NCBI GenBank assembly: GCA_947647735.1
Contig: CANSLJ010000009.1
Span: forward strand, 59,791-123,790
Source of the DNA: an uncultured bacterium
Lineage (GTDB): Bacteria > Bacillota > Clostridia > Lachnospirales > Lachnospiraceae
DNA length: 64,000 nucleotides
Direction of reading: 5' to 3'
The notes beneath the pieces were generated by a model. It was not told the DNA's origin. It searched no databases and saw only the letters and a program-made list of their open reading frames with translations. Within the stretch, counting starts at the first letter, position 1; each line of letters starts with the position of its first letter. Positions 27,428 to 42,510 of the stretch are shown here, piece by piece. The position numbers and the translations under genes were made by a program.

Positions 27428-28537
27428 TCACATCTCATTCATATACAACATCACTTCCGCCGCAAACACCCCGTCTGCATACCGAAACTCAATATTCCCG
27501 TTCTGTCTCTCCACCATACGCCTCACATTCTGCAGCCCGATGCCATGCTCCCCCGCATTCTCCTTTGTCGATAAAAAACCATGCCCTTTCTTTTTCGGCA
27601 TCTCCTCACAACTGTTGGCAATATGGATTAAAAACACACCCCTGTCAGCTTTCAGCACCAGCTTCAGCCATTTCCTGTCACTCCCCTGTGCCGCCTCGAT
27701 CGCATTATCCAGAAGGTTTCCCAGGATCACATTGATATCAAAAGATTTCGGCATCCACTCCATCGGCACATGGATATCACTCTCAACAGCCGATAAAACC
27801 AGTTCCGCCTTCCGCAGCTTATAATTTAAAAGACTGTCGATCTCCTTATTCCCGCATTTCACATACTCCGCAGGATTTTGCAGCTCCTCCTGCATATCCT
27901 CCAGATAATGCAATGCATCTTCATAATTCCCCTGACGCAGTTCCGCCTCCAGATGCAGCATATGATTTTTCATATCATGCCGCAGCGCCCGAAGCCGGCT
28001 CTGGGACTCCTCAATCACCTCAAGCTGATTCCGGTAGAGATCTGTCTGCCGCCTGTAAATATCCCGCTGTCTGATATGGGTATCGTTCTTCACGAGAATA
28101 TGATACAGATAAAACACGCTTAAATCTGCCGCAAGAATGCACCCGCAGCAGAGAGCCGAAAAAAAATACGGCTCTAAATCCCCCAAAAACAGACAGATCA
28201 TCGCAAGCAGCCCTGTCACCGGTATAACCATCAAAAGCATTGTTTTCTTTCCATCTGCTTTTTCTTCCTCCACATCCACTGTCCCTGTTCTTATGATCAT
28301 CACATAAGAAAACAAAAACAACAGCACTCCTGCTGTCATTTCCCGCAGATAAAATGTCCGCCCGCAGGCAAAATAGGGAATCAGATAACATGCCGTCTCC
28401 ACGCTGCAGAGCGTTATGATCAGCCAGATCCTTCTCCCGGCAAACGCCTCAACCAGCTTTTTCAATAAGGCGATATTCAGAAAAACGACTATCCCGGCAG
28501 CGGCCGCCCCATATATATTTATATTATATCCCCACAT
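27428..28537 (-). CDS. GHKL-domain sensor histidine kinase, AgrC-like
   Basis: Sensor kinase of 369 residues with about six N-terminal membrane segments (residues 8-150), then a coiled coil (RRQTDLYRNQLEVIEESQSRL) and the AgrC-type phosphoacceptor motif with H187 in LRALRHDMKNHMLHLE. The ATPase domain has N-box NVILGNLLDNAIEAA and HGIGLQNVRRMVERQNGNIEF. The polytopic sensor type usually detects peptides or membrane-active antimicrobials. It overlaps the LytTR regulator gene by 14 bases. No AgrD-like peptide gene was seen nearby. The exporter operon further downstream is a possible target. Confidence 0.92.
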   Translation of the reverse strand: MWGYNINIYGAAAAGIVVFLNIALLKKLVEAFAGRRIWLIITLCSVETACYLIPYFACGRTFYLREMTAGVLLFLFSYVMIIRTGTVDVEEEKADGKKTMLLMVIPVTGLLAMICLFLGDLEPYFFSALCCGCILAADLSVFYLYHILVKNDTHIRQRDIYRRQTDLYRNQLEVIEESQSRLRALRHDMKNHMLHLEAELRQGNYEDALHYLEDMQEELQNPAEYVKCGNKEIDSLLNYKLRKAELVLSAVESDIHVPMEWMPKSFDINVILGNLLDNAIEAAQGSDRKWLKLVLKADRGVFLIHIANSCEEMPKKKGHGFLSTKENAGEHGIGLQNVRRMVERQNGNIEFRYADGVFAAEVMLYMNEM

Positions 28538-29315
28538 GCAGTCTCTCTTTCTCCAGTTCCTTTATCCTGCTCCTCACGGCTTTCCGGTAAGGCCTGCTGA
28601 TGCTCAGAAGGCTTCCGTCCTGCATTTTCACAGTCTCATAGGTATACTCGGCAGCATAATCGCTGTTTATGATATAAGATTGATGGATCATCATAAAACC
28701 CGCCGGAAGCTTTTCTAAAACCCCTTTTAATTTCCCATAGAATTCATGCATGCCGATCCGTTCAGCAGTTATGCTGTCCTGTGCGCTTCCTTCTACATAA
28801 CGGCTTTCTTCTTTTACCTTCTCCTTTGTTACTATACTTATCTTCTTATCATTACTCATAAAGTACAAAATATCCCTGCACGGAATCTGATAAAACACAC
28901 CGCCCTTCTGATACTCAAACAGCGCCCTTCCCTGTGCCCGCTGTTTCATACTCCGCTCCAATACCTCTCTGATCTGCTCCTTCGAAACCGGCTTGATCAG
29001 AAAATCCAGCGGCTGCAACCGGAAAAGCTGCATGGCGTACTCCTGTTTGGAAGAAACATAGACAATATGCGTCGTATAATCATCTCCCCTCCGGATAAAT
29101 TTCCCCACGTCGATCCCGCTTTTTTCATATAACTCAATATCCAGAAACAAAATATCCGGGCACGGCATCTTTTCCAAATCCCGCATGATGCTCTCACCGG
29201 AATACCACACTTCTGTCTCTATTTTCTGATGCAGTTTCTCCGCCAGATCAGAAATGACCTCCTCCAGTCCGGCACAGAAAATCTTGTCGTCATCGCAAAT
29301 GCCTACATGATACAT
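28524..29315 (-). CDS. LytTR-type response regulator, AgrA-like
   Basis: Response regulator of 263 residues. The receiver has D8/D9/D10 acidic residues, phosphoacceptor D59 in DILFLDIELYEKSG and K in FLIKPVSKEQ. The LytTR DNA-binding domain (about 150-255) contains ILYFMSNDKKISIVT, FYGKLKGVLEKLPAGFMMIHQSYIIN and ISRPYRKAVRSRIKE. It is the first gene of the pair with the GHKL kinase. A broken sigma-factor gene lies 90 bases upstream. Confidence 0.93.
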   Translation of the reverse strand: MYHVGICDDDKIFCAGLEEVISDLAEKLHQKIETEVWYSGESIMRDLEKMPCPDILFLDIELYEKSGIDVGKFIRRGDDYTTHIVYVSSKQEYAMQLFRLQPLDFLIKPVSKEQIREVLERSMKQRAQGRALFEYQKGGVFYQIPCRDILYFMSNDKKISIVTKEKVKEESRYVEGSAQDSITAERIGMHEFYGKLKGVLEKLPAGFMMIHQSYIINSDYAAEYTYETVKMQDGSLLSISRPYRKAVRSRIKELEKERLHVGI

Positions 29316-29853: not shown

Positions 29854-30480
29854 TTAAATTGTAAACCCCGGGAAACCATGTTTATATTTTTCATCATCTG
29901 TTGAATCCAACTTTCTGATCACTCTGCATGGATTTCCCGCTGCCAGCACCCCCGCCGGAATGTCTTTTACAACAACACTTCCGGCAGCAATTACAGAATT
30001 ATCTCCAATGGAAATACCTCCTACGATTGCAGTTCCAGCACCGATCCATACATTATTCCCAATTTTCACAGGCCATGTATATTCAATTCCTGCTATTCTG
30101 TCCTCCGGGTCAAACGGATGTCCTGCCGCATATATTCCACAATTTGGAGCAAACCTGACGTCATCACCAATTATAATTTTATTTGGAGCAAGAATAATAA
30201 AATTATAATTAGAGAAAAAATTGTTCCCAACCGTGACGTTTTTCCAAAAGTCACAGTAAAAAGGCTGCTCGATCCGAAAGCCCTCCCCTATACTCCCTAT
30301 CTCCTTTTTGATAAATTCTTCTCTCTTTTTTTGTTCTAATGGTGATAATAAATTGTACTGATAGGAGAGTCCTTGAGAACGAATTCTCTCTTTATCTATT
30401 TCTTTATCCTGCGCGTCATAAAACATTCCTGCCAACGCTTTCTCTTCTTCTGTCATATCCTGTTCCCTTTCTCTGATCAT
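29854..30480 (-). CDS. Sugar O-acetyltransferase, maltose/galactoside acetyltransferase type
   Basis: Left-handed beta-helix acetyltransferase of 208 residues. It has the Mac domain (EEEKALAGMFYDAQDKEIDKERIRSQGLSYQYN) and hexapeptide repeats from about 75 to 190 (PFYCDFWKNVTVGNNFFSNYNF through VWIGAGTAIVGGISIGDNSVIAAGSVV), with catalytic His in the loop IYAAGHPFDPEDR. It transfers acetyl from acetyl-CoA to sugar hydroxyls. The first ATG at 30480 overlaps the flavin reductase stop by 4 bases; an ATG at 30456 is an alternative. It ends the operon and may detoxify a surplus non-metabolisable sugar, as proposed for LacA. Confidence 0.93.
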   Translation of the reverse strand: MIREREQDMTEEEKALAGMFYDAQDKEIDKERIRSQGLSYQYNLLSPLEQKKREEFIKKEIGSIGEGFRIEQPFYCDFWKNVTVGNNFFSNYNFIILAPNKIIIGDDVRFAPNCGIYAAGHPFDPEDRIAGIEYTWPVKIGNNVWIGAGTAIVGGISIGDNSVIAAGSVVVKDIPAGVLAAGNPCRVIRKLDSTDDEKYKHGFPGFTI

Positions 30481-30986
30481 CTGCTTTCCTGCACATTTGT
30501 AATCGTGTCAAGATATCGGTAACCCTCCCACGCAAACAATTGCTCTCCGGTATTACCCGAATGAATTTTCACGATCTCTGCAATATACAACCAATGATCC
30601 GACGCTTCCATACTGGAAACCACTTTACACTCAAGTGCTATTTTATATCTGTCGATCAGTTTTGTACCAATTACATCTGCATCCTGTAATAAAAATCCAA
30701 ATTCTTTTACTTTATCTGTATTTCTCCCCGAACACCGGCCGCACTTCATTGCCATTTCCTGATATTCGTTTCCGATAAGATGGAACCCAAATTCTCCTGT
30801 TTCATCAATCAGCTCATGAGTATATCCCTTTTTGCTTAGGCAGATCGCCATCATCGGCGGTTTGTTTGACACAAACGTCCACCAGGATAATGCCATAATA
30901 TTACTTTTTTCTCCTGTTCCCGATGTAATCAGGGCAAAAGGATTGGGGGAAGTCATCTTCTGAACTTCATTAATTGAAATTTCCAT
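30477..30986 (-). CDS. Flavin reductase-like FMN-binding protein
   Basis: Split-barrel flavin reductase-like protein of 169 residues. The opening MEISINEVQKMTSPNPFALITSGTGEKSNIMALSWW and the following NKPPMMAICLSKKGYTHELIDETGEFGFHLIG are typical of the family that binds FMN on a dimer. Members reduce flavins with NAD(P)H or are small flavoproteins of unknown role. The gene is separated from the creatininase-like gene by 80 bp but overlaps the acetyltransferase start, so it may belong to the sugar operon. What oxidation or reduction it serves is not evident. Confidence 0.87.
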   Translation of the reverse strand: MEISINEVQKMTSPNPFALITSGTGEKSNIMALSWWTFVSNKPPMMAICLSKKGYTHELIDETGEFGFHLIGNEYQEMAMKCGRCSGRNTDKVKEFGFLLQDADVIGTKLIDRYKIALECKVVSSMEASDHWLYIAEIVKIHSGNTGEQLFAWEGYRYLDTITNVQESR

Positions 30987-31066
30987 ATTCTTTCCTCTTT
31001 CTAACTAAAATGATTCAAAACTGTTTTTTCATATGATAATAAAACATCTTTATCCTATTCCGGATA

Positions 31067-31804
31067 TCATTGAATTTCTTTATCCAGATATTCCAACGTA
31101 CAGCGGACAATTTCATCACCAAATTCTTTACTGGCTTCGTTTGCGCTTTGAGCATACCACTCTGTATTATCTTTTCTGCGGTCCATATCTACCCTTTCAG
31201 GATACAGACTTAACATCATACTCGTCTCTACCTTTCCGGCATGATCGAATCCGCAGACCTTCTCCTGCACTTCTGCGCCCAGAAGAGGAATAACTTTAAT
31301 ATAAGAAAATGGATCATCACCTGTTTTGCAGTTCTCATAATAGTCTGCATAGGAATCTTTTCCCCACCAGCCTAAGCCCTGTGTATCTTCCAGATATTCC
31401 ATAATTACTTTTTTGGCTGCCTTATGACATGCAAGCGTCATAGGCATCAATCCCGCATTTTCTGTCTGATGATGCGGGATGCAATAAATATTCTTGACTC
31501 CCCCATAAACCAGAGATTTTAAAATACAATAAATATACTGCTCATATGCATCTACATCTACATGAATCGTCCCACTTTCCGGTCCGGCTACCGCATAGCT
31601 TGCCACACCATACCAGATAGGAGGACAGACAACAATCTCTTTACGTTTTTCCAATTCTTTTAAAACACCTGTAATAACAAATGTATCTGTTCCTGAACTT
31701 AAATGTCTTGTATGATATTCAATCGTTCCGATCGGAATCACAAACGGAACCCTTCTTTCTCTCGCGTCTTTAATCTCTTCAAAAAATATATCCAGTAACT
31801 GCAT
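31067..31804 (-). CDS. Creatininase-family (creatinine amidohydrolase fold) protein
   Basis: Protein of 245 residues in PF02633. The metal motif is PIGTIEYHTRHLSSGTD, giving E29, H31 and D40 with the same spacing as E34/H36/D45 of creatininase. HHQTEN (111-116) takes the place of the usual GHGGN/GHYEN motif and HAGKVETS (188-195) that of HAGExETS. These changes make true creatinine hydrolysis unlikely. Other members act in riboflavin and mycofactocin pathways and on amides or lactams. It lies among sugar kinases and a mutarotase, so a sugar-lactone or related small cyclic substrate is possible, which is inference only. Confidence 0.85.
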   Translation of the reverse strand: MQLLDIFFEEIKDARERRVPFVIPIGTIEYHTRHLSSGTDTFVITGVLKELEKRKEIVVCPPIWYGVASYAVAGPESGTIHVDVDAYEQYIYCILKSLVYGGVKNIYCIPHHQTENAGLMPMTLACHKAAKKVIMEYLEDTQGLGWWGKDSYADYYENCKTGDDPFSYIKVIPLLGAEVQEKVCGFDHAGKVETSMMLSLYPERVDMDRRKDNTEWYAQSANEASKEFGDEIVRCTLEYLDKEIQ

Positions 31805-31822
31805 CAGGCTACCTCCTTTATT

Positions 31823-32158
31823 CTAATTTACATAAAAAATCTGCTTCATATCATGATAATATGGGCTTTTCTGATCAAAAGCATACTCCTCAAAGCACGG
31901 ATGCGTATGCCCCCACCACTGTTGAGTGACCGGATCCTCTTCCATCCTTTTCATATCTGCCGCATAATCATCTCCTGTATACTCATAATAAGAAAAAACC
32001 ATTCTGCCATGAAGGAAAATCGAATAATTTGTCAGATTGCATTCCTGTATCATTTTCACCACATCCGGCCAAGGATCCGCATGCAGCCCAACATATTCCT
32101 CTACCATATTCGCTTTCAACATTCCCACCTGCCCAAAATATTTAATTTTTTGGCCCAT
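31823..32158 (-). CDS. RhaM-like sugar mutarotase
   Basis: Protein of 111 residues in the L-rhamnose mutarotase family (PF05336), which interconverts alpha and beta anomers. The catalytic pair Y22 and H26 in EEYVGLHADPWPDV has the spacing of Y18 and H22 in the E. coli enzyme, and RMEEDPVTQQWWGHTHPCFE carries the conserved Trp pair. It overlaps the 3' end of the PfkB kinase gene by 17 bases and is 18 bases before the creatininase-like gene. Substrate might be a 6-deoxy or other pyranose. No rhamnose isomerase or kinase is present. Confidence 0.92.
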   Translation of the reverse strand: MGQKIKYFGQVGMLKANMVEEYVGLHADPWPDVVKMIQECNLTNYSIFLHGRMVFSYYEYTGDDYAADMKRMEEDPVTQQWWGHTHPCFEEYAFDQKSPYYHDMKQIFYVN

Positions 32159-33101
32159 TCCTTTTCCCTTCCTTTACTAAATCTTCTATTTGCTCCCATT
32201 GCGGCATTGCGGCAACACCTGTTCTTCCTGTTGCACAGATTGCCGCTGCCGCATTTGCATATGTTATCATTTTCTTCAAATCCCAATCAGAATGATAGAT
32301 CATAAGATAGTGCATCGTTCCCAAAAAAGAATCCCCACATCCAGTTGTATCAACTGCTTTTACAGAAAACGCCTTTTCAAACCCGCTGGTATACTTATCT
32401 CCGTACCAGGCTCCCTTGTCTCCTTCTGTGATAAATACATAGGAGATTCCCTTGTTTAAGAATTTCTCTAATGCATCTGACGGATGGATCGTCTCCGAAT
32501 CTAAGATCAGTTGCATCTCCTCCCTTGATATCTTTAAAATGTCACAATATTGCAGGCATTCCATGATTATTCTTCTGGCTTCCTCCGGAGAATTCCATAG
32601 ATTTTCTCTGTAATTGGGATCAAATGATAATCTGATCCCATGCTCCTTTACCATTCTGAGCATCTTTCGTATTGTTGATGCACATGGCTCATCCGTAAAA
32701 CTTAATGTCCCATAATGAAAAATTTTCGTCTCCAGCCAATGATCATTCGGGATTTTCTCAAACTCAAGCCTTGTATCTGCCCCCGGATTGCGGAAAAACG
32801 CAAACTTTCGTTCCCCATCCGCGCTGTTTGCGACAAAATCTATAGTCGTAAATTCCGGCACTTTTATCACATTCTCCACATCAATTTGCAGCAATTTTAA
32901 CTGTTCTATCAAAAATTCTCCAAAAAAATCATCACCGATACTTCCAACAAATGCACAATTTCCACCCAGTTTTGCATTTGCTGCCAAACAATTTGCCGGC
33001 GCTCCACCCGGATTCATTTCAAAACCCGGATTTCCCATCGGACCTTGACAGGACGGAGAAAAATCAATTAATACTTCACCCATTCCAACAACATCATACA
33101 T
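32142..33101 (-). CDS. PfkB family carbohydrate kinase
   Basis: Ribokinase-fold kinase of 319 residues that phosphorylates a sugar or sugar phosphate with ATP. Signature 1 appears as NPGGAPANCLAANAKLGGNCAFVGSIGDDFFG; the anion-hole/catalytic motif is DTTGCGDSFLG with catalytic Asp before SF (family DTxGAGD, here Ala replaced by Cys). The lid phrase FAFFRNPGADTRL matches fructokinase/KDG-kinase-type proteins. It overlaps the FGGY kinase gene by 8 bases. Two kinases plus a class II aldolase suggest formation and cleavage of a sugar bisphosphate. Confidence 0.93.
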   Translation of the reverse strand: MYDVVGMGEVLIDFSPSCQGPMGNPGFEMNPGGAPANCLAANAKLGGNCAFVGSIGDDFFGEFLIEQLKLLQIDVENVIKVPEFTTIDFVANSADGERKFAFFRNPGADTRLEFEKIPNDHWLETKIFHYGTLSFTDEPCASTIRKMLRMVKEHGIRLSFDPNYRENLWNSPEEARRIIMECLQYCDILKISREEMQLILDSETIHPSDALEKFLNKGISYVFITEGDKGAWYGDKYTSGFEKAFSVKAVDTTGCGDSFLGTMHYLMIYHSDWDLKKMITYANAAAAICATGRTGVAAMPQWEQIEDLVKEGKRNGPKN

Positions 33102-34620
33102 ATTCTCTTTCCTCTCTTTGAATCTTTCTCAATGCGTGAAAGCTATCTTTTAATGAAGGATATAAAGTGCGGTAAATCTGATAATAAGGATCATACCGGT
33201 TCCCTCTTTCTTTAGAAGGTATAAATATCCGTCCCTTTTTTGAGAAAATCTCTGATGCTCTTTCCCAGCCTGCCTTTTCATTTAATGCAACCATTGCCGA
33301 CATTGCTCCTGCAGCACAGCCTGCCTCTTCATTTTTCATCCTCACGATTGTTCTTCCTGTAATATCAGCCTTCAATTGTAACCAGTAATCCGATTTTGCC
33401 CCGCCGCCAACTGCCCTGATCTCCTTTATTTCCGCACCACACCCGCTTTCGATCATTTCCAGATTTTGCCGCAATTCATAAGTAATTCCTTCCAGAATCG
33501 CCTGCAAAATATCTTTCTTCGCTGTATTTGTCTGAAGCCCGATCATCGCTCCCATGGAATCTGCATCTTTATATGGCGGTCCTGATCCTGCAAAATGCGG
33601 CAGTACCAATAATCCTGATGGCTTTGTACTGCATTGATCGATCACAGCATCATATCCTGACGCTTTTATACCGGATTTTTCCATTTCGTCAAAATACCAG
33701 TTAACGATCGCACTTCCGCCAACGTTGGTCGCCGTACAAATATATAAATCCGGATATAGATGGTAATTTGTCGGGTATTGGCTTTTCATAAAATATGGAG
33801 CCAGCAGCGGCTTATCTGTAGAAATACTTAAAGATTCCATCGTCCCCGATCCGACTACTGCCGTCCCGCTTTTTGAAAGCCCTGCACCTGTTGCCGCACA
33901 GGATTGATCGAAACCTCCTGTTGCTACATAAACCGGATATTTAAAGCCAAGCGCCCTGGCTTTTTCAGTCTCGATCTGCCCTGCTATTTTTCCGGATTCC
34001 GCCATCTCAGAAAACCATTCTCTCTGTAAACCGGCTGCAGATATAACATCATCCAGATAACATTTTTTTTCTAAATCAACCAGCATCAGTCTGGCAGCTG
34101 AAGAATAGCTGCAAACAGGTTTCGCAATTCCGATCCTCGCCTGTAAAAAATCTTCCCATGTCATCACATGCCGGATTTTTTGAAAAAAAGCAGGCTCATG
34201 TGTTTTGTACCACATGAGCCTGAAAACACCATACTTTCTATGTATCGGCAATCCTGTTTTTTTAAACAAAGACTCGGCTGAAAATCTGGCCATAAGCTGT
34301 TCCAGTTCCTCCTGTCCTCTGCGGTCACGCGACATTATCACTGGCCCTAAGCTCCTCATTTGTTCATCCAGAATAACGCATTCATCTCCGGAAACACTGA
34401 TAGATACTCCCTCTGCTGTTTCCGTTCCCATGTTTGTATTATTTTCTATAATACATTCCTGTACAAGCTCTGCCGCCAACTCTGGGTCCAATTCCTCCAG
34501 CCCTGAATCATTTTTCTGACATGGGTATTTACGATACGCTCTGTACAGTAAATCTCCACTTTCCGAAAATGTACAGACTTTGCATCCCGTTGTACCAAGA
34601 TCAATTCCCATATAATTCAT
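33094..34620 (-). CDS. FGGY family carbohydrate kinase
   Basis: Kinase of 508 residues of the xylulokinase/gluconokinase type. The N-terminal phosphate loop is GIDLGTTGCKVCTF, the catalytic aspartate is probably in YVATGGFDQSCAATGAG and the ADP motif is VGGGAKSDYWLQLKADITGRTIVRM. MSRDRRGQEELEQL is the sugar-contact region in FGGY domain I. The gene lies between the aldolase and the PfkB kinase. With both, it could phosphorylate a free ketose before a second phosphorylation. The exact sugar cannot be read from sequence. Confidence 0.93.
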   Translation of the reverse strand: MNYMGIDLGTTGCKVCTFSESGDLLYRAYRKYPCQKNDSGLEELDPELAAELVQECIIENNTNMGTETAEGVSISVSGDECVILDEQMRSLGPVIMSRDRRGQEELEQLMARFSAESLFKKTGLPIHRKYGVFRLMWYKTHEPAFFQKIRHVMTWEDFLQARIGIAKPVCSYSSAARLMLVDLEKKCYLDDVISAAGLQREWFSEMAESGKIAGQIETEKARALGFKYPVYVATGGFDQSCAATGAGLSKSGTAVVGSGTMESLSISTDKPLLAPYFMKSQYPTNYHLYPDLYICTATNVGGSAIVNWYFDEMEKSGIKASGYDAVIDQCSTKPSGLLVLPHFAGSGPPYKDADSMGAMIGLQTNTAKKDILQAILEGITYELRQNLEMIESGCGAEIKEIRAVGGGAKSDYWLQLKADITGRTIVRMKNEEAGCAAGAMSAMVALNEKAGWERASEIFSKKGRIFIPSKERGNRYDPYYQIYRTLYPSLKDSFHALRKIQREEREYV

Positions 34621-34647
34621 TGTTTTGCCTTATACACCTTATTATGA

Positions 34648-35487
34648 TCAGCGATTTGAAAAAATATCAATCAAATGCTCTACCTCTGCGGTTACCCCTT
34701 TCTTCGCCTCCACAAGAAGTTCCGGGAACCTCATCCTTCCATTCTCTAAAACATTGGCAATCTCATTCACCGCCGCTGTGGAAACTCTTGTAAAAATACT
34801 GATCTTCTCAACACCAATGTCGATAGCACGCCTGTAAGAATCATCCGCAACCCCGCTTCCTCCATGCAGGGAAATATACACGTTCGTCCTGTCACAGATT
34901 TTCTGAAGCCTGTCGTAATCCAAATGACTTTCTCCTGCTGCTCTTCCATGAATGGTTCCAACAGACACAGCAAGAATATCCACACCGGTCTTTGTTGTAA
35001 ATTCTTCTACAAGTTCCGGATCTGTCACCGCATCATGGTCGTATTTTGCTTCTGCTTCTTTCCCTACTGTCCCGATTTTTCCTAATGGTGCCTCCACCAG
35101 CACGCCATGTCTGTGAGCCATCTCTACAATATCTCTTGTCTGATGGATCTTTTCCTCAAACGGCAGCTCGTACCCGTCAAACATAACTGTAGAAAATCCT
35201 GCCTCTATCGCTTTTTCGATCGTTTCCACTTTTTTTGCATGATCAAGCTGAAGCGCGATCGGCACAGATGCTTTTTTTGCCTGGTTTTTCATGATATAGG
35301 AAATCAATTCCCAGTCAGAAAATTTAATGTGACTTTCTGCCAAAGGAAGGATTAACGGATACTTTTTCTCCTCTGCTGCCGCAATGATACCCTGAACCAT
35401 TTCGATATTGAAACAATTAAACGCTCCAACAGCATATTTCCCTTTTCTTGCCTCTTCCAGCATATTCTTCATTTCAACAACAGCCAT
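34648..35487 (-). CDS. Class II aldolase, GatY/KbaY-like
   Basis: Zinc-dependent ketose-bisphosphate aldolase of 279 residues. Catalytic D82 and zinc ligands H83 (LQLDHAKK), H180 (GTIHGRA) and H208 (LHGGSG) have the exact numbering of tagatose-bisphosphate aldolases. An oddity is VEAPLGKIG at 131-139, where most relatives have EAELG; the Glu replaced by Pro is not a zinc ligand, but might change the acceptor pocket. It is 27 bases before the FGGY kinase and 2 bases after the TIM-barrel gene. Product is likely DHAP plus an aldehyde. Confidence 0.92.
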   Translation of the reverse strand: MAVVEMKNMLEEARKGKYAVGAFNCFNIEMVQGIIAAAEEKKYPLILPLAESHIKFSDWELISYIMKNQAKKASVPIALQLDHAKKVETIEKAIEAGFSTVMFDGYELPFEEKIHQTRDIVEMAHRHGVLVEAPLGKIGTVGKEAEAKYDHDAVTDPELVEEFTTKTGVDILAVSVGTIHGRAAGESHLDYDRLQKICDRTNVYISLHGGSGVADDSYRRAIDIGVEKISIFTRVSTAAVNEIANVLENGRMRFPELLVEAKKGVTAEVEHLIDIFSNR

Positions 35488-35489
35488 TT

Positions 35490-36176
35490 CTATACATCCC
35501 CTTCCTCATTAAGATAATCCAATACCGCATTGATATTATCAGCAAATGTTCCTTTACAAAACTTCTTTTCAAAAAATGCGCCGCCAATTGTAAATGCCCA
35601 GGCACCGGCTGCTTTTATTTCCGACAGTCTCTGAAAGCTGGATACACTTCCTGCAAGGCAGACATTTCCTTTTACATGTTTTACAAATTCCTGATTCAAT
35701 TTCACCGCATCCCCGGTATATCGATATCCCAAAAGATCAAAACCTTTAATACCCTTTTTCTGAACCAGTTCATTTGCCTCTGCGATCATACCCTCGATCG
35801 TCCCTTTCAGAACGCTTGGCCTTCCTTCGATCGTTCCGACAAAGGGATAATATACAACGCCATTATCTTCTGCGATTTTCTGCACACTCTCAAAATACAT
35901 TGTGCCCATGAGTATATCAAACCCGCACTCTGCACATACTTTTGCCCCGTCTATACATGCATCCTCTGTATATGCAACAACCTCCAGGACGGCTGTTTTT
36001 CCTGCCTCATGGATCAGCTTTACCAGCCTTATCATTTCTTCCTTCGGGAGCCCTACTTCCTTAAATCCCCAGTAATTTACATCCGTATGCTTTGCGCCTT
36101 CAAAAACTTCAATCGCATTTTCAACTGTTTTATCATTCCAAGTTAGCATAACGATAAGTTCAGATTTTTTTTTCAT
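35490..36176 (-). CDS. Unassigned TIM-barrel protein with a C-terminal phosphate-binding signature
   Basis: Protein of 228 residues, starting MKKKSELIVMLTWNDKTVENA at an ATG at 36176 with AAAGGAG in front; a TTG 18 bases earlier is unlikely. The beta-alpha repeats are easy to see: VLEVVAY, DILMGTMYF, VYYPFVGTIEG, GIKGFDLLGYRYTGD, NVCLAGSVSS and AWAFTIGGAFF. The last two resemble the phosphate-binding loops of the HisA/TrpF/ribulose-phosphate barrels. An epimerase, isomerase or aldolase-like role on a sugar phosphate is plausible but not proven. It sits between the M24-fold protein and the class II aldolase. Confidence 0.7.
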   Translation of the reverse strand: MKKKSELIVMLTWNDKTVENAIEVFEGAKHTDVNYWGFKEVGLPKEEMIRLVKLIHEAGKTAVLEVVAYTEDACIDGAKVCAECGFDILMGTMYFESVQKIAEDNGVVYYPFVGTIEGRPSVLKGTIEGMIAEANELVQKKGIKGFDLLGYRYTGDAVKLNQEFVKHVKGNVCLAGSVSSFQRLSEIKAAGAWAFTIGGAFFEKKFCKGTFADNINAVLDYLNEEGDV

Positions 36177-36187
36177 ATGGCTCCTTT

Positions 36188-37357
36188 CTAGCAATCTATT
36201 TCATAAATCGTTCCAATCTGAGGACTCAGCAGATCACATCCGTTCTCCGTAATAACGATCGGTTTTTCCCAACGCAGGCCGAAATCCGGTCCCATAGCAA
36301 ATGTATCGATCTGGAATGTCATATTTTTCTTCAGCGGATAATCAGATATTGTTTCCATCCATGGCGCTTCTACCTCGATCAATCCCAGACCATGACACGG
36401 ACCATATAATAGATTCTCACCATATCCGTTCTCCTGGAAGAATGTAATAAAATCTTTTGCGATCTGGGAAGCCATAACGCCGGCCTTCAGCTGCCCTTCT
36501 GTCCACATATGCGCTTTCAGGCAAAATTCCACCAACTCACGTTTAAATCCGGTCAACGGTCCCATGGAAACCGGCATGCCAATAGACGGTGAATAGCCGT
36601 CAATCTTGGCAGCAAGATTGATCTGAACAATATCTCCCTTTTTAATTTCTCTATAGCTTGATCTGGATATCGCATGCTGTGTGGACTTCTCCGAAAATAC
36701 ATAAAGTGGCAACCCCTCATACTCTGCTCCGTTTTCATAGATACACTGCTGTGCAATGCCGACCATCTGAAGCTCTGTCATACCAGGTTTTAACTTTCTG
36801 ATCACTTCTTCCGTTGCAATCTTTGTAATACGCGCCGCTTCTCTTAAACATGCAATTTCATTATCGGATTTTACAGAACGAAGCGTTGTCATGATGTCAT
36901 CACACCTTACTATCTCTGCTTCCGGGTATGCCTCTTTAATTCCTTCATATACAACAAGGTTTGTATCCAGCCATGCCGCCATACCAATACGGATATGATC
37001 CCCGGTTACATGAAGCTCTTGAAAAACATCTCTAAATGTCTGGCATTTTAATTCAGGATACGATGGATTTGCAGATTCTCTGTACTCCCTCAATACCCGT
37101 ACCTTTTCAATCCTGCCAAAATCACTCGCAAAAATTTCGCTTTCCGGACCTACCATTAACGCACAGTCTCCTGCTGGTGTGATTGCAACACCAACCCTTT
37201 CAAATACCGGCCAAAACCCCGAAAAATATCTGGTATTCGCATAATCAGCCTCAGAACCATTTATTACAAGAATATCCAGTTCCCTTTCTTTAGCAAGTTT
37301 TGCCGCATTCTGAATTCTTTCTTTGTATTCATAGTCAGGTATACAAATTCTACTCAT
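36188..37357 (-). CDS. M24 (creatinase/aminopeptidase P fold) protein with lost metal ligands
   Basis: Pita-bread-fold protein of 389 residues with a creatinase-type N-terminal domain (1-150) and an M24 C-terminal domain. Alignment by motif to aminopeptidase P gives N247 (INLAAKIDGY) instead of Asp, S258 (GYSPSIG) instead of Asp, H322 (GPCHGLGL) retained, D351 (FQIDTFAMG) instead of Glu, and E364 (LRWEKPIVI) retained. Thus the dinuclear metal site is probably absent, as it is in creatinase. It is therefore unlikely to be a peptidase and may bind or transform a small molecule in the sugar pathway. Twenty-two bases follow the ASRT-like gene. Confidence 0.85.
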   Translation of the reverse strand: MSRICIPDYEYKERIQNAAKLAKERELDILVINGSEADYANTRYFSGFWPVFERVGVAITPAGDCALMVGPESEIFASDFGRIEKVRVLREYRESANPSYPELKCQTFRDVFQELHVTGDHIRIGMAAWLDTNLVVYEGIKEAYPEAEIVRCDDIMTTLRSVKSDNEIACLREAARITKIATEEVIRKLKPGMTELQMVGIAQQCIYENGAEYEGLPLYVFSEKSTQHAISRSSYREIKKGDIVQINLAAKIDGYSPSIGMPVSMGPLTGFKRELVEFCLKAHMWTEGQLKAGVMASQIAKDFITFFQENGYGENLLYGPCHGLGLIEVEAPWMETISDYPLKKNMTFQIDTFAMGPDFGLRWEKPIVITENGCDLLSPQIGTIYEIDC

Positions 37358-37379
37358 ATATTTTCTTCTCCTCTATTCT

Positions 37380-37751
37380 TTAATCTACCGCATAGCCCAT
37401 CACGGTATAATATGCCAGGTTTGTCTGCCTTGAGTCCAGCCTGCCATATTGCACTATAACCGGAACGGAACTTTCTACTTTCAACGCATACTGCGTCTCT
37501 ATGGGCTGAGCTTTATCCTTAAAATATTTTTCTTCATGTGTTTTCATGCAACACACGCGCTCTGCATCCACAATAATCTCATCTGTTGTTACAGGATCTT
37601 TATCTTCATAATAAAATGTAATTTTTATAACTGCCTGCCCCTTATTGGGGTTTAAAACAACAATGGATTCATGCCCTTTTAACGGACTGTCCCCAAATGG
37701 CGGCCTGTCTCCATCCGGAAAGAACCATATTCTCTTTCCATATTCTTCCAT
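37380..37751 (-). CDS. Anabaena sensory rhodopsin transducer (ASRT) family protein
   Basis: Small protein of 123 residues. The opening EEYGKRIWFFPDGDRPP, then GHESIVVLNPNKGQAVIKITFYYEDKDPV and VESSVPVIVQYGRLDSRQTNLAYYTVMGYA match the ASRT family (PF07100/DUF1362), a beta-sandwich tetramer first known as the soluble partner of Anabaena sensory rhodopsin. Most family members are far from rhodopsins and have been proposed to bind small carbohydrates. Here it is the first enzyme-operon gene after LacI and an inverted repeat. No rhodopsin is present. It may be a sugar sensor or a small enzyme. Confidence 0.85.
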   Translation of the reverse strand: MEEYGKRIWFFPDGDRPPFGDSPLKGHESIVVLNPNKGQAVIKITFYYEDKDPVTTDEIIVDAERVCCMKTHEEKYFKDKAQPIETQYALKVESSVPVIVQYGRLDSRQTNLAYYTVMGYAVD

Positions 37752-37770
37752 ATTTTTATCCTTTCAGCTT

Positions 37771-37810
37771 ATTTTGCTCGTTGAGCAATCGTTTGCTCAA
37801 CGGGCAAAAT
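37771..37810 (-). promoter_or_regulatory. Long inverted repeat containing a probable LacI-family operator
   Basis: Two 18-base arms (37771-37788 and 37793-37810) match with one mismatch around a TCGT centre. The inner 20 bases, TTGAGCAATCGTTTGCTCAA (37781-37800), have the CG-centred symmetry of LacI-family operators. The half site GTTTGCTCA recurs twice before the importer operon. It lies between the LacI stop and the ASRT start. The RNA could also form a strong hairpin, but no U-run follows. Confidence 0.65.
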
Positions 37811-37813
37811 GAA

Positions 37814-38815
37814 TTACTTTTTACTTTTTAATGTTTCTCCTTCTGAAAACTTATACGGTAACAGTTTACGGCTATGTTTTCCCGGCGTTTTCATATTATT
37901 TAAGACCATCTCTATCGCCACTTCTGCAATTTCTTCAACCGGCTGAATGATTCCAGTAATACTCTTATCCCGCATTGACATAGAATCCTCGCCATCAAAG
38001 CAGACCAGCGCAATATCCTCCGGTATGCGGATTCCATATTTCCTCAAAGCAGCATATGCGCCAAACGCCTCCACATTATTATGTGCATAAATACATTCCG
38101 GCAACCTTTTCCTGATGATCAGGTCCTCTGTAATCTCATAACCACTCTTGTAATGGCAGTCCCCAAAATACACCCTGTCATGTGTCCATTCTATATTATT
38201 GGCTCTGAGACAATTTTGAAAACCTATCAGCCTCTGGTTGCTGGATGTTTCATCCAGATCACCAGTGATCATAACGATATCCCTGTATCCCCTGTCTATC
38301 ACGCGCTGCGTCAATTCCATAGAAGCTTCGCAATTATTAATACTTACAAAAGAATACGGTTTCTCCGTTATATACGGTTCGTTGTCTACAAAAACACAAT
38401 TAATATTCTGCTTCTCATTCTCATATATCATGCTTCGGCTGGCGGGCGATACAATGATCCCTGCCACATTTTTTTCCTTCAGCAGCTGATAATACTCTAA
38501 TTCCCGTTCCACATTTTCATCTGTATCACAGAAAATAATGTTATAGCCCTGTTCCCATAATCTGTGATCAATACTTTTAAGCATTCTTACAAAAAAAGTA
38601 TTTGTAATATCAGGTATAATCACGCCAATTGTAGAGCTTGTCTGTTTTTTCAATTCCCTTGCATTTGCATTTGGTGTATAATTCAATCTTTTAACGGCTT
38701 CAAAAACAGCTTTTCTCTTTTCATCACTGATTCTGCCAGTATTGTTTATTACCCGTGATACACTGGATACAGATAATCCAACTTCCTCCGCGATATCCCT
38801 TAACGTTACTCCCAT
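37814..38815 (-). CDS. LacI family transcriptional regulator
   Basis: Sugar-responsive repressor of 333 residues. The helix-turn-helix is VTLRDIAEEVGLSVSSVSRVINNTGRISDEKR (2-33), followed by the hinge helix LNYTPNANARELKKQ and a periplasmic-binding-protein-like core (TIGVIIPDITNTFFVRML through IPEDIALVCFDGEDSM). It has its own promoter and is followed by the ASRT-M24 enzyme operon. Three candidate operators in the two flanking promoter regions are described separately. The inducer is probably the sugar imported by the neighbouring Rbs-type transporter. Confidence 0.95.
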   Translation of the reverse strand: MGVTLRDIAEEVGLSVSSVSRVINNTGRISDEKRKAVFEAVKRLNYTPNANARELKKQTSSTIGVIIPDITNTFFVRMLKSIDHRLWEQGYNIIFCDTDENVERELEYYQLLKEKNVAGIIVSPASRSMIYENEKQNINCVFVDNEPYITEKPYSFVSINNCEASMELTQRVIDRGYRDIVMITGDLDETSSNQRLIGFQNCLRANNIEWTHDRVYFGDCHYKSGYEITEDLIIRKRLPECIYAHNNVEAFGAYAALRKYGIRIPEDIALVCFDGEDSMSMRDKSITGIIQPVEEIAEVAIEMVLNNMKTPGKHSRKLLPYKFSEGETLKSKK

Positions 38816-38860
38816 ACCTTATCCTCTGTTAATCTAAAAACCACCAATTATTTTAGCTTT

Positions 38861-38889
38861 AGAATAACATTTTAATCCTTAAAAGTCAA
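38861..38889 (-). promoter_or_regulatory. Promoter of the lacI-type gene and enzyme operon
   Basis: Minus-strand -35 TTGACT (38884-38889), 17-bp spacer and -10 TATTCT (38861-38866), in the 86-bp gap after the binding-protein gene, about 46 bases before the LacI start. Confidence 0.6.
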
Positions 38890-38901
38890 AACTTTACAAT
38901 T

Positions 38902-39918
38902 TTAATCATAGAGCAGCGGAGCAATCTTTTCATCATCTATATTTGATGCATCATACCAGTAACATCCCGTATCTATAAAAGACTCTACCGTCTCACCATT
39001 GATAAGTTTTACTGCGCTTTCAACCGCTGCACGTCCCATGCCGATCGGGTCCTGTGTAATAGCCCCAACGATCTCACCATTTCTTACAGCCTCTTTCATT
39101 GCCGCTGAAGAATCAAATCCGACAAGCATAACTTCTCCAATCTTTCCGGCTTCCTTTAATCCATTGTAAGCACCTACGCAGGATCCTTCGTTAGATGTAT
39201 AGATTAAATCCAAATCCGGTGTAGCTGTTACCATGCTCTTGGCAATTTCGGCGGACTTCATCTGATCGCCTTCCCCATACTGAATATCAACGATCTCAAT
39301 ATCCGGATATTCTTCTTTGAGCTTTTCTTCAAATCCGGCTACACGTTCCACCGCGTCGATCACTGTCTGAGAATGCCCGATAATAGCAACCTTTCCTTTT
39401 CCACCAAGTAATTCTCCTGCATGTTCTGCAGCAAGAGCGCCTGCCGCCATCGAATCCGTAGAGCATTTTACATCTGATTCCGCCTCACCAACGCCGGAAT
39501 CAAAGCCGATTACAGGAACCCCTTTCGCCTTTTCCTCCTGCAGAATTCCTGCAACGGACTCTGTATCAATGGCCGCCATGCAAATAGCATCCGGGTTATT
39601 CTGAACCGCTGTTTTCAGCATATCCACCTGCTTGTCCACCATAGTCTCCTGCTCCGGTCCCTCGAATGTGATCCGATAGCCCAGCTCATCCGCCGCCTCT
39701 TCAGCTCCCTGCTTCACAGCCTGCCAGTACTGGTGCGAGAATCCAAGCGCAATCATTGCAATGTACTTATCATCCTCTGTCTCCGCACTTGCTTCGCTGC
39801 CTGATTCTTCTGTTTTCACCTCTGCCGATTCGTTTGTGCTTTCGCCTGAGGAACATCCCACCAACATTGTTGATAACATTCCTATCACTGCTAATACCGC
39901 CACCAATCTCCTTTTCAT
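38902..39918 (-). CDS. Sugar-binding lipoprotein, RbsB-like
   Basis: Receptor of an Rbs-type importer, 338 residues, with lipobox MLVGCSS (Cys 22) and an acidic Ser-rich linker. The PBP type 1 core starts KYIAMIALGFSHQYWQAVKQGAEEAADELGY and includes KAKGVPVIGFDSGV, LIYTSNEGSCVGAYNGLKEAG and GAITQDPIGMGRAAVESAVKLI. It is the third gene of an ATPase-permease-binding protein set. The 86-bp gap after it holds the lacI promoter. Confidence 0.93.
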   Translation of the reverse strand: MKRRLVAVLAVIGMLSTMLVGCSSGESTNESAEVKTEESGSEASAETEDDKYIAMIALGFSHQYWQAVKQGAEEAADELGYRITFEGPEQETMVDKQVDMLKTAVQNNPDAICMAAIDTESVAGILQEEKAKGVPVIGFDSGVGEAESDVKCSTDSMAAGALAAEHAGELLGGKGKVAIIGHSQTVIDAVERVAGFEEKLKEEYPDIEIVDIQYGEGDQMKSAEIAKSMVTATPDLDLIYTSNEGSCVGAYNGLKEAGKIGEVMLVGFDSSAAMKEAVRNGEIVGAITQDPIGMGRAAVESAVKLINGETVESFIDTGCYWYDASNIDDEKIAPLLYD

Positions 39919-39973
39919 CTAGTTACCTCCTTTTTTCTTTTTCATTTATTTATAATGGCTTATGCCACTATAT

Positions 39974-40966
39974 TCATGCGTTGCTTTTACCTGCCACTTT
40001 TTTTCTCTTTTTTCTTCTCTGATCAAACGCTACAGTTAAGATCAGCACAACACCGATAATAGCATACTGTGTTTCTGTCGATATCTGTAAGATACGAAGC
40101 CCGTTTTGCAGGGAACTGATGATCAGGGCTCCTATCAGTGTTCCAACTATTGTACCTTCTCCACCCATGAGAGAATTACCGCCGATAACGGCTGCCGCAA
40201 TCGCATCCATTTCATATCCAGGCCCCAACGCCGGCTGTGCCGAATTTAATCTGGAGGATAATACCAGTCCCGCGATTCCTGCATATGTACCACAAAGCGT
40301 GTATACACCTATCTGCCAGTTATCTGTATTAATACCGGAAAGTCTTGTTGCTTCTGCATTAGAACCAATTGCAAGCGTATATCTCCCGAAAATTGTTTTT
40401 GAAAAAATAATATAAGAAACTACGCACATTCCAAGAAGAATGATGATCGCATTATAAAATCCGTTAATTCCCAGAAAATTCCCCGTCGCAATTTTTTGAT
40501 ACCAGGGACATCCTGTAAAATAAACCGGTTTACAGCCTGAAATAACTAGTGAAAGCCCTTTTGTAATCATTTGCATTGCCAAAGATGCGATCATAGGCGG
40601 CAGTCCCAGCTTTGCACTCATGAACCCGTTCAGAAAACCACAAAATGAACCTACTAATATTCCTAATATAATACAAAGCCCGATCGGGAGACCTGCCGCA
40701 TTAAATGCAACACCGCTAAGCACACAACTAAAAGTCATCACAGTACCGACAGAGATATCAATGCCTGCTGTCATAATAGGCCAGGATACCGCAAATGCGA
40801 GTAATCCGTTTGTGCTGGTTGCCAGCAAAATCGTCATAATATTGTTGTAGCTCAAATATGCCGGATTAATTATTCCAAATGCCAGCAAAAGAACTACAAG
40901 AGCAAGAACAATTACAATTTTTCTTTTAAACTCTGATTGTTTGGTTAAATTTTTCAGCTTTTCCAT
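39974..40966 (-). CDS. Sugar ABC transporter permease, RbsC-like
   Basis: Inner-membrane permease of 330 residues with about eight to ten hydrophobic helices. FAVSWPIMTAGIDISVGTVMTFSCVLSG and YEMDAIAAAVIGGNSLMGGEGTIVGTLIGALIISSLQNGLRIL are the standard BPD_transp_2 signatures, and IIFSKTIFGRYTLAIGSNAEATRLSGI matches RbsC closely. The basic C-terminus (FDQRRKKRKKVAGK) is cytoplasmic. It starts 3 bases after the ATPase stop and is followed by the binding-protein gene after 55 bases. Confidence 0.95.
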   Translation of the reverse strand: MEKLKNLTKQSEFKRKIVIVLALVVLLLAFGIINPAYLSYNNIMTILLATSTNGLLAFAVSWPIMTAGIDISVGTVMTFSCVLSGVAFNAAGLPIGLCIILGILVGSFCGFLNGFMSAKLGLPPMIASLAMQMITKGLSLVISGCKPVYFTGCPWYQKIATGNFLGINGFYNAIIILLGMCVVSYIIFSKTIFGRYTLAIGSNAEATRLSGINTDNWQIGVYTLCGTYAGIAGLVLSSRLNSAQPALGPGYEMDAIAAAVIGGNSLMGGEGTIVGTLIGALIISSLQNGLRILQISTETQYAIIGVVLILTVAFDQRRKKRKKVAGKSNA

Positions 40967-40969
40967 ACC

Positions 40970-42472
40970 CTATTCTCCTTTACTTCTCTGGGTCGCAAAT
41001 TTCATAATGATATCCTGATCGATATCCGCCCCTGTCACTTCTCCCGTCAGCCTGCCTTCACACATAACCAATACTCTATGACAGCATCTTATAATTTCCG
41101 GCAGTTCGGAAGAAATTACAATAATCGTCTTACCCTGTTCTGCTAAAGCATTCATCAACTTGTAAATCTCACTTTTAGCGCCTACATCTATTCCCCTGGT
41201 AGGTTCATCAAAAATAATAATTTCCGCATCCTTCGTCAACCATTTGGCAAGAACCACTTTTTGCTGATTACCTCCTGACAAAAATTTTACAAGCTGTTTC
41301 ACTGAAGGCGTTTTTATGGCAAGATCATCCAGCTGTTTATCAGCATTTGCCGCACATTCTTTAAATTTGATAAATCCCACCTTAGACATTTTTCGAAGAT
41401 TCGCCATGGAGATATTCGTTTCAACATCAAGCCCCGTCGCTACCCCGTAACGTTTTCTGTCTTCTGATAAATATGCTATTCCCGCTTTCACCGCATCCGA
41501 TGGAGAATTAATCTTTTGTTCCTTTCCATGGATAATGATTTTCCCTGAGCTATGTGGATCTGCTCCAAAGACCGCTCTTGCTGTTTCCGTCCTTCCCGCT
41601 CCGACCAGTCCTGCAAACCCGAGAATTTCTCCAGCATATGCCTTAAAACTAATATCCTGCACCAATGGGCCTGCATTTAAATGCTCTACTTCCAAAGTCA
41701 ACTCAAGATCCTGCTTCTCCAGTGGCTTTTGTTTCTCGACAAAAATTTCACGCCCGACCATCATCCTGATCAACTCATCTACCGTCACATCTTTTGTGTC
41801 AACCGTATCAATGTACTTACTATCCCGCATCACAGTAATTCTGTCCGCTATCAGTTTTAATTCCTCCAGCCTGTGTGAAATATGAATGATCGATTTGCCT
41901 TCTTCTCTCAGCATCTTGATCACTTCAAACAAATCTTCTATTTCATTATCCGTTAATGAAGCAGTGGGTTCATCCATGATCAATACTTTAATATCAAATG
42001 AAAGAGCTTTGGCGATTTCTACCATCTGCTGCTGTGCTACTGTAAGATTGCCAACCTTCTCTCTCGGATTGATTTTGACATGAAGTTTTTCAAATAATTT
42101 TTCAGCCTCTTCATTTTGTGTCTTTTTATCGAGGAATATCTTATCCTTTTTAAATTCCCTTCCAATAAAAATATTTTCTGCCACGCTCAAATGATTCATA
42201 AGATTCAGTTCCTGATGGATCATGATTACTCCCGCGTTCTGAGCTTCCTTCACATTTTGAAAGTTAACCTCCCTGCCCTCCAGAAAGATCTTTCCCGAAT
42301 CTTTTGCGTAGACCCCTGTCAGGACCTTCATCAATGTAGATTTTCCCGCGCCGTTTTCACCAACCAACGCATGTACCTCTCCTGCATCAAGCGAAAATTT
42401 TACATCCGACAAAGCTTTAACGCCTGGAAATTCTTTTGTAATCCCCTCCATCCTAACAACTTCCTTTGACAT
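40970..42472 (-). CDS. Sugar ABC transporter ATP-binding protein, RbsA-like
   Basis: Tandem ATPase of 500 residues. Domain 1: Walker [10 protein letters not shown] near 38-46, signature replaced by LTVAQQQMVEIAKAL and Walker B VLIMDEPTASL. Domain 2: degenerate Walker A GLVGAGRTE, signature LSGGNQQKV, Walker [13 protein letters not shown], all typical of RbsA-type ATPases. First gene of the importer operon. The upstream 354 bases contain a good promoter and two of the three candidate LacI operators. Confidence 0.95.
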   Translation of the reverse strand: MSKEVVRMEGITKEFPGVKALSDVKFSLDAGEVHALVGENGAGKSTLMKVLTGVYAKDSGKIFLEGREVNFQNVKEAQNAGVIMIHQELNLMNHLSVAENIFIGREFKKDKIFLDKKTQNEEAEKLFEKLHVKINPREKVGNLTVAQQQMVEIAKALSFDIKVLIMDEPTASLTDNEIEDLFEVIKMLREEGKSIIHISHRLEELKLIADRITVMRDSKYIDTVDTKDVTVDELIRMMVGREIFVEKQKPLEKQDLELTLEVEHLNAGPLVQDISFKAYAGEILGFAGLVGAGRTETARAVFGADPHSSGKIIIHGKEQKINSPSDAVKAGIAYLSEDRKRYGVATGLDVETNISMANLRKMSKVGFIKFKECAANADKQLDDLAIKTPSVKQLVKFLSGGNQQKVVLAKWLTKDAEIIIFDEPTRGIDVGAKSEIYKLMNALAEQGKTIIVISSELPEIIRCCHRVLVMCEGRLTGEVTGADIDQDIIMKFATQRSKGE

Positions 42473-42490: not shown

Positions 42491-42510
42491 TTGGTCTATC
42501 GTTTGCTCAC
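42491..42510 (-). promoter_or_regulatory. Candidate LacI operator in the importer leader
   Basis: TTGGTCTATCGTTTGCTCAC on the plus strand. The right half matches the ASRT-side operator in 9 of 10 bases, the left half in 7 of 10. It lies about 60 bases downstream of the importer promoter's -10, a position suited to blocking elongation or supporting a loop. Confidence 0.5.

Follow-up and report, generated by a model that had tools for sequence, protein, structure and literature searches.

Creatinase has the M24 (pita-bread) fold and works without a metal centre. For ectoine, an M24-fold hydrolase (DoeA/EutD) is paired with a deacylating hydrolase (DoeB/EutE) of another fold than creatininase, and the inositol pathway of Thermotoga contains a creatininase-fold enzyme, IolN, together with a PfkB kinase. 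The ydj cluster of Escherichia coli combines a class II aldolase (YdjI) with a PfkB kinase (YdjH). Here we describe a sugar locus that brings together an Rbs-type importer, a LacI-family regulator, a small ASRT-family protein, an M24-fold protein, a creatininase-fold hydrolase, a class II aldolase and two sugar kinases. It lies in a 64,000-nucleotide stretch of DNA from an uncultured Lachnospiraceae bacterium (GenBank assembly GCA_947647735.1, contig CANSLJ010000009.1, positions 59,791–123,790 of the forward strand), hereafter the window, to which all positions refer.

ASRT proteins are predicted, in the main text of De Souza et al. 2009 (PMC2739507), to sense sugars in sugar operons, and the same text places them in sugar isomerase–aldolase–kinase loci of Thermotoga and other organisms. 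M24 and creatininase neighbours go unmentioned in the sections of that text covered here; the remainder, Figure 1 and an additional file of the paper may draw them. We found no description of the M24–ASRT–creatininase combination, of the chemistry of its enzyme pair or of the full set in the openly licensed PubMed Central literature searched, and the NCBIfam matches listed for the ten genes that run from ASRT through Mac include no curated equivalog at its cut-off, which agrees with a first-pass annotation of the window that knew of no described pathway with this gene set.

Results

Conservation of the gene set and its core

We collected relatives of the M24 protein by scanning one genome per species across 84,980 species with two peptide patterns (residues 325–332 and 46–53, where conservation is therefore partly by construction), which yielded 352 relatives. 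Neighbours of the best 80 of these were counted by tblastn up to 10 kb from the M24 gene; many of these contigs are short, and distant kinases are missed by this search. An ASRT gene was found in 62 loci, a creatininase-fold gene in 54 and both in 48. AraC (33), LacI (17) and RbsA (12) followed, and the remaining genes were rare: FGGY in 6 loci (8 by clustering), PfkB in 5, aldolase in 4, and RhaM and the TIM-barrel protein in 2 each. Ten loci show a bare run of M24, ASRT and creatininase genes, one of them (L133) with a divergent AraC gene. Judged from these counts, the conserved core is the M24 protein, ASRT and the creatininase-fold hydrolase, which in most loci have neither kinases nor aldolase beside them. 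A trio of M24, ASRT and TIM barrel, which the first-pass annotation had put forward for neighbourhood analysis, does not emerge as a conserved unit, as the TIM-barrel gene is present in just three of the five full loci (the window and the four described next).

A near-complete set recurs in four of the 80 loci, from Merdimonas sp. (L068), an uncultured bacterium (L069), Bacterium 1XD8-76 (L070) and Candidatus Merdisoma merdipullorum (L071). All four hold the binding protein, LacI, ASRT, M24, aldolase, FGGY, PfkB, creatininase-fold and Mac proteins, at 60–93% identity, and the expected co-conservation of the gene set is borne out to this extent. L069 and L070 have both the TIM-barrel and the flavin-reductase gene, L068 and L071 neither; the reverse holds for RhaM, and the window has all three. 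As these three genes differ among the full loci, they are variable parts.

A survey of 397 genomes from the bacterium's own family, with cut-offs of E ≤ 1e-50 for M24 and E ≤ 1e-30 for the creatininase subfamily, found the M24 protein in 12 genomes, one of which has only a sister type at 37% identity. The creatininase subfamily was found in ten genomes, all among these 12 and each time within about 5 kb of M24. ASRT was found in 19 genomes, including 10 of the 12, and by coordinates it lies beside M24 in nine. The probabilities of such co-occurrence with M24 at the genome level are 3e-18 for creatininase and 2e-13 for ASRT, with kinship ignored. The 13 family loci (L050–L062, two of which, L050 and L051, have M24 rows identical to those of L073 and L074 in the 80-locus set) carry ASRT in ten cases, the creatininase-fold gene in nine, RhaM in seven and Mac in five. 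None has TIM, FGGY or PfkB genes, and the sole aldolase signal is a partial match about 9 kb away in L058.

Clostridia of gut, rumen or digester origin account for many of the 80 loci, and Paenibacillaceae, Kiritimatiellae and others for some (lineages as given in the record titles). Loci that combine M24 and ASRT with the creatininase-fold gene are Clostridia-type or unplaced; loci of Paenibacillus, Cohnella, Actinomyces and Spirochaetales have a NodB-fold gene in its stead (see below).

A shared operator

Intergenic stretches of the window and its relatives have a palindrome in common, TGAGCAAACGATTGCTCA, which matches shuffled versions of the window 0.07 times on average (100 shuffles). Across the whole 4.1-Mb assembly, which is 86.6% complete, the only matches with up to three mismatches are the two window sites, one before the transporter genes and one before ASRT and M24, and the reversed control gave none. 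Since these same sequences supplied the motif, its matches in the window are partly by construction; its absence elsewhere is not. A third window match, at four mismatches, falls inside the binding-protein gene (38918), and in the window, L070 and L071 a degenerate copy with five mismatches, TGAGCAAACGTATGCCGT, precedes RbsA at a greater distance. The operator is found at both places in L070, L071, L072 and L073, and at one place in L068 and L069, whose contigs are cut at the transporter end. Five further loci were scanned: the operator is absent in three, and each of the other two has one match at four mismatches. By its operator, shared between transporter and enzyme genes, the locus has the layout of a LacI-controlled sugar ABC operon, which a sugar would induce, and the sequences support a single LacI-controlled sugar regulon, in line with the first-pass description of a LacI-linked sugar locus. 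Taken together, the operator, the relatives with the whole set and the co-occurrence counts are beyond chance.

Active sites of the core proteins

The M24 protein matches PF00557 with 95.3 bits (cut-off 23). M24 metallopeptidases have five metal ligands, D-D-H-E-E. Aligned to the structure 2zsg, the window protein has N247, S258, H322, D351 and E364 at these positions. It was at first described as lacking the metal ligands; both aspartates are indeed lost and one glutamate is replaced by aspartate, but His322 and Glu364 are kept. The second metal aspartate is lost in all 94 family rows and the first is asparagine in 93, so that 93 of the 94 rows lack both and depart from the five-ligand metallopeptidase pattern. 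H228, H322, D351, E364 and R362 are invariant in all 94, and because the first four of these never vary, the M24 protein looks like an enzyme, with a strictly conserved, metal-poor active site. A sister M24 subfamily at 36–38% identity (L063, L065, L066) is also without the two metal aspartates; it sits in Rbs-type operons that have additional M24 genes close by, and in L066 a phosphotriesterase-like protein was noted by eye.

The ASRT protein scores 110 against a cut-off of 25 for PF07100. Compared with the family signature SHEshChhN, the window has GHESIVVLN, with the histidine kept and the cysteine replaced by valine. A second ASRT gene lies elsewhere in the same genome, outside the window (G000:C28:12042-12353).

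The creatininase-fold protein scores 114.7 against 31.3 for PF02633. E29, H31, D40 and H112, which we take to be metal ligands, are invariant in all 17 sampled rows and the last glutamate is shifted by one residue; the protein thus has both the fold and the dimetal ligands of the creatininase superfamily. In 11 of the 80 loci a NodB-fold deacetylase (family PF01522, checked on L088) lies near M24, with D13, H75 and H79, presumably its ligands, invariant in 11 of 11. Both hydrolase active sites look intact from these alignments. No locus has both hydrolases and 15 have neither; the probability of no overlap would be 7e-7 if the loci were independent, which they are not, as kinship is ignored. 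Mapped on a quick IQ-TREE phylogeny of M24 (97 rows, with support from the Shimodaira–Hasegawa-like approximate likelihood-ratio test, SH-aLRT), the creatininase/NodB label requires at least five changes, and NodB against all other rows requires eight, six of them forced by the starred branches. Repeated swapping between the two folds is the simplest reading and suggests that both perform the same chemical task. The third member of the core is therefore probably a metal-dependent hydrolase, acting on an amide or ester.

Variable parts and the lower pathway

At E ≤ 0.01 no Pfam family matches the TIM-barrel protein. At 0.1 it shows a below-cut-off match to His_biosynth, as found in 12 of 15 members of its family, and a 15-row profile matches HisA and, more weakly, NanE over the C-terminal part (best E-value, 9.7e-6). 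In HisA and NanE this region binds phosphate, and for that reason the protein may handle a phosphorylated sugar. A role as a general isomerase is weakened, as L068 and L071 have kinases and aldolase without it. A role in a four-carbon acid sugar kinase/PdxA pathway was also considered; tblastn found neither gene in L014, L020–L030, L069 and L070 (the window was outside that search). On plasmids of alpha- and betaproteobacteria (L015, L016, L019), the gene immediately after those for four-carbon acid sugar kinase and PdxA encodes a distant family member, annotated as hypothetical, cupin protein or 4-hydroxythreonine-4-phosphate dehydrogenase. By eye, the family lies beside YqeG-type HAD and VanW-like genes in other Firmicutes (L022–L024) and by a VanW-like gene in L020, L021 and L025; in L026 and L014 it lies by one long open reading frame, and annotation was available only for L014.

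The aldolase passes the general subfamily cut-off of TIGR00167 (cbbA; 216.9 against 215.6 bits) and fails the fructose- and tagatose-bisphosphate equivalog cut-offs (243.9 against 343, and 200 against 443.6). Its zinc histidines are kept, by eye. Five solved class II aldolases have the motif INxNT, which is replaced by ISIFT in all five full loci, and it therefore probably acts on a substrate other than the common one. A lower pathway of kinases plus aldolase, suggested at first as a bisphosphate route, stays plausible. One more locus, L105, has FGGY and PfkB genes by the M24 module, with a SIS protein, an amidohydrolase, a triose-phosphate-isomerase-like protein and an aldose epimerase.

Clues to the sugar

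Mutarotase-type genes of several families recur near the module: RhaM, DUF4432 (11 of the 80 loci, none of them with RhaM), aldose epimerase and YiaL, whose mutarotase roles we assume. L-rhamnose genes were seen in three of the 80 loci, a count for which the search queries were these loci's own genes: L096 has an L-rhamnose isomerase over the cut-off and a RhaB-like gene, L090 has RhaA- and RhaB-like genes below cut-off, and L082 has a RhaB-like gene. Together with the mutarotases, these neighbours suggest a free reducing sugar. Judged as an L-rhamnose catabolic locus, the window has no isomerase match, and FGGY (90 against 528 for rhamnulokinase) and RhaM (41 against 99.6 for TIGR02625) both fall short.

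Twenty of the 80 loci have a glycosidase-like gene, unassigned to any family, close to the module. Five are of a GH20-domain type, in which GH20 domain 2 was matched in four of four members and DUF4838 and GHL6 weakly in one member each; the other 15, here called GHx, have only a below-cut-off GH20b match and no relative in the PDB. Single GH94, GH4 and GH1 genes occur in other loci. A ureidoglycolate-lyase-like neighbour in L061 led us to consider a glycosyl-ureide or N-glycoside substrate, which, resting on one locus, we do not claim. Aminoglycoside 3-N-acetyltransferase-family genes, below NCBIfam cut-offs, lie near the module in L082, L115, L137 and L138; the assignment was checked on the L082 copy, and four loci are too few to build on.

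Gene content of the window

The locus is a single run of 14 genes, all on the minus strand (29854–42472), with gaps between successive genes of −17 to +86 bp (this range uses an upstream TTG for the TIM-barrel gene, whose likely start is the ATG at 36176). The genes and domains named in the first pass are all present (Table 1). For the ten genes from ASRT to Mac, domains were called at Pfam gathering cut-offs and functions at NCBIfam equivalog or subfamily cut-offs. Nine of the ten have a Pfam family, the TIM-barrel protein excepted; besides the matches given above, Creatinase_N (PF01321, on the M24 protein), FGGY (PF00370/PF02782), PfkB (PF00294), rhaM (PF05336), F_bP_aldolase (PF01116), Flavin_Reduct (PF01613) and Mac/Hexapep exceed gathering. 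None of the ten reached an NCBIfam equivalog cut-off (for Mac, among 25 of 44 matches listed), and no isomerase or dehydrogenase was found among them in the NCBIfam and Pfam scans, in keeping with the first-pass remark that none known for a standard sugar is present. LacI, the binding protein and the permease have no equivalog-level NCBIfam match among those listed, nor does RbsA among 25 of 193 matches listed.

Table 1. Genes and operator copies of the sugar locus, in window positions.
Feature	Position	Strand	Remarks
LacI-type operator copy upstream of RbsA	42492..42509	-	3 mismatches to TGAGCAAACGATTGCTCA; same place in L070–L073
RbsA-like sugar ABC ATPase	40970..42472	-	
RbsC-like permease	39974..40966	-	
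Transporter sugar-binding protein	38902..39918	-	best NCBIfam match RhaS, 127.9 against cut-off 342
LacI-family regulator	37814..38815	-	
Operator copy, LacI–ASRT intergenic	37782..37799	-	TGAGCAAACGATTGCTCA, exact
ASRT-family small protein, core	37380..37751	-	PF07100; predicted small-molecule sensor (main text of PMC2739507)
M24 pita-bread protein without both metal Asp, core	36188..37357	-	PF00557
TIM-barrel protein, variable part	35490..36176	-	weak HisA/NanE-type similarity; no Pfam family
Class II aldolase	34648..35487	-	ISIFT replacing INxNT
FGGY kinase	33094..34620	-	best NCBIfam match XylB, 270 against cut-off 380
PfkB kinase	32142..33101	-	best NCBIfam match fructokinase, 185 against cut-off 450
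RhaM-family mutarotase, variable part	31823..32158	-	
Creatininase-fold metallohydrolase, core	31067..31804	-	dimetal ligands kept
Flavin-reductase-like protein	30477..30986	-	co-occurs with TIM
Mac/LacA-type sugar O-acetyltransferase	29854..30480	-	

Just downstream of the sugar locus, translations indicate a GHKL-type histidine kinase and a LytTR-type regulator in an agr-like arrangement (27428–29315). A PIN-like protein overlapping an XRE/ImmA-like protein, resembling a toxin–antitoxin pair, was likewise noted from translation only (25628–27309).

Discussion

Our tentative preference, possible rather than probable, is that the locus is a LacI regulon for a modified (masked) sugar, which two hydrolases would unmask before it passes to the kinase pair and a class II aldolase of atypical sequence. 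The Rbs-type importer would take up a sugar bearing an amide, an ester or another C–N substituent, and RhaM would exchange its anomers. The creatininase-fold enzyme, or the NodB-fold deacetylase in other bacteria, would hydrolyse the amide or ester, and the M24 protein, with no dimetal centre, would break the adjacent C–N bond as creatinase does. ASRT would sense the sugar, the FGGY and PfkB kinases would phosphorylate the freed sugar, the aldolase would split the phosphorylated sugar into smaller products, and Mac would acetylate any surplus. If the M24 protein both deaminated and isomerised an amino sugar, a ketose would result, which would explain the absence of an isomerase. We are somewhat doubtful of a broader proposal, that M24, ASRT and the creatininase- or NodB-fold hydrolase form an exchangeable module, so far undescribed, for unmasking nitrogen-substituted sugars; here the metallohydrolase would remove or open an amide and the metal-free pita-bread enzyme would break the sugar C–N bond. 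It might then be the first pita-bread protein to serve as a deaminase-isomerase of an unphosphorylated amino sugar, and the route in the window would need no classical isomerase.

Several observations weigh against a masked sugar opened by hydrolysis. Fifteen of the 80 loci have neither hydrolase; in at least eight of them the contig is short or breaks off directly behind M24, which is not so in the rest. The number of swaps depends on a quick tree, for which SH-aLRT is the sole measure of support. IolN has the creatininase fold and cleaves a C–C bond, so that the fold alone need not mean amide hydrolysis, and NodB-fold enzymes cleave esters too. None of the 11 loci from Kiritimatiellae, Verrucomicrobia and Lentisphaerae has an ASRT match, and four of them carry a creatininase-fold gene. 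The L-rhamnose genes of at least three loci (L082, L090 and L096) would fit an ordinary aldose product equally well, and the L-rhamnose isomerase of L096 would be superfluous if the M24 protein made a ketose. Neighbouring genes single out no one substrate, and the window locus is without a nitrogen-specific gene.

Other explanations draw on parts of the same evidence. In the first-pass model a rare sugar without modification would be the substrate, with the M24 and creatininase-fold proteins as its isomerase and lactonase, so that a ketose reaches the kinases and aldolase. This fits the lack of any isomerase gene among those found, the FGGY and PfkB genes by the module in L105, and the five full loci, all of which have both kinases and the aldolase and three of which have a mutarotase-family gene. 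We consider it unlikely: it is weakened by a core that mostly occurs without kinases or aldolase nearby, and hydrolysis is favoured over isomerisation because a NodB-fold deacetylase can take the place of the creatininase-fold protein, a swap that better fits amide or ester cleavage. Improbable to about the same degree is a module for the breakdown of L-rhamnose, or of a sugar resembling it, together with esters of that sugar, in which the hydrolases would strip O-acyl groups, RhaM would mutarotate the sugar and the downstream genes would vary with the strain. RhaM itself, a binding protein closest to RhaS among the matches listed, the rhamnose-type genes of L082, L090 and L096, and the ASRT genes in isomerase–aldolase–kinase loci of Thermotoga and others (PMC2739507, main text) speak for it. 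Yet rhamnose genes were seen in just 3 of the 80 loci, the window's RhaM and FGGY proteins lie below the rhamnose-type cut-offs, there is no rhamnose isomerase or rhamnulose aldolase among its genes, and a 6-deoxy sugar has no 6-hydroxyl for a second phosphorylation.

We think it quite unlikely that the locus encodes an ordinary hexose or ketose pathway of the tagatose, sorbose or fructose type, with M24, ASRT and the creatininase-fold protein as regulators or repair enzymes. The aldolase does pass the cut-off of the general ketose-bisphosphate subfamily, fructokinase is the best match of PfkB and ASRT is a predicted sensor (PMC2739507, main text), but ISIFT stands for INxNT in all five loci, the tagatose- and fructose-bisphosphate equivalogs are failed, and the active-site residues of the M24 and creatininase-fold proteins are strictly kept across many lineages. 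Hundreds of loci carry a relative of the M24 protein, and the strict active-site conservation of the enzyme pair, the clean alternation with a second fold and the LacI operator make the question of the substrate directly testable. Should C–N cleavage of a masked sugar prove right, gut bacteria would have an added route for opening modified sugars and the pita-bread fold a new activity.

Among described systems, creatinine degradation by creatininase and creatinase is similar in having a creatininase-fold protein with kept ligands near an M24-fold protein. It differs in that the window protein fails TIGR04448 (73.4 against 235), creatinase (1chm) is a weak match (3.5e-6), and the genes here lie in sugar operons with ASRT, an importer and a mutarotase. 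Ectoine hydrolase DoeA is among the NCBIfam matches of the window M24 protein, with its cut-offs failed (49 against 575 and 38 against 613), and the context here is that of a sugar. The parallels with creatininase/creatinase and with ectoine hydrolase/deacetylase would extend to function class only. The window's creatininase-fold protein also fails the IolN family NF041098 (62.4 against 245), and the ten genes from ASRT to Mac include no inositol dehydrogenase-like gene, unlike the Thermotoga inositol pathway. YdjI of the E. coli ydj cluster is a PDB relative of the window aldolase (154 bits), with INIHT in place of ISIFT; that cluster shares the pairing of a class II aldolase with PfkB and was compared on the aldolase only. 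In the TM1070-type loci of Thermotoga, ASRT likewise lies near a sugar kinase and an aldolase (PMC2739507, main text), and the window adds RhaM and a RhaS-like binding protein to that likeness; in contrast, no isomerase was found here, the window's kinase is not of the rhamnulokinase type, and M24 and creatininase genes are added. The locus is of a known kind, LacI-controlled sugar catabolism, and is set apart by its core enzymes.

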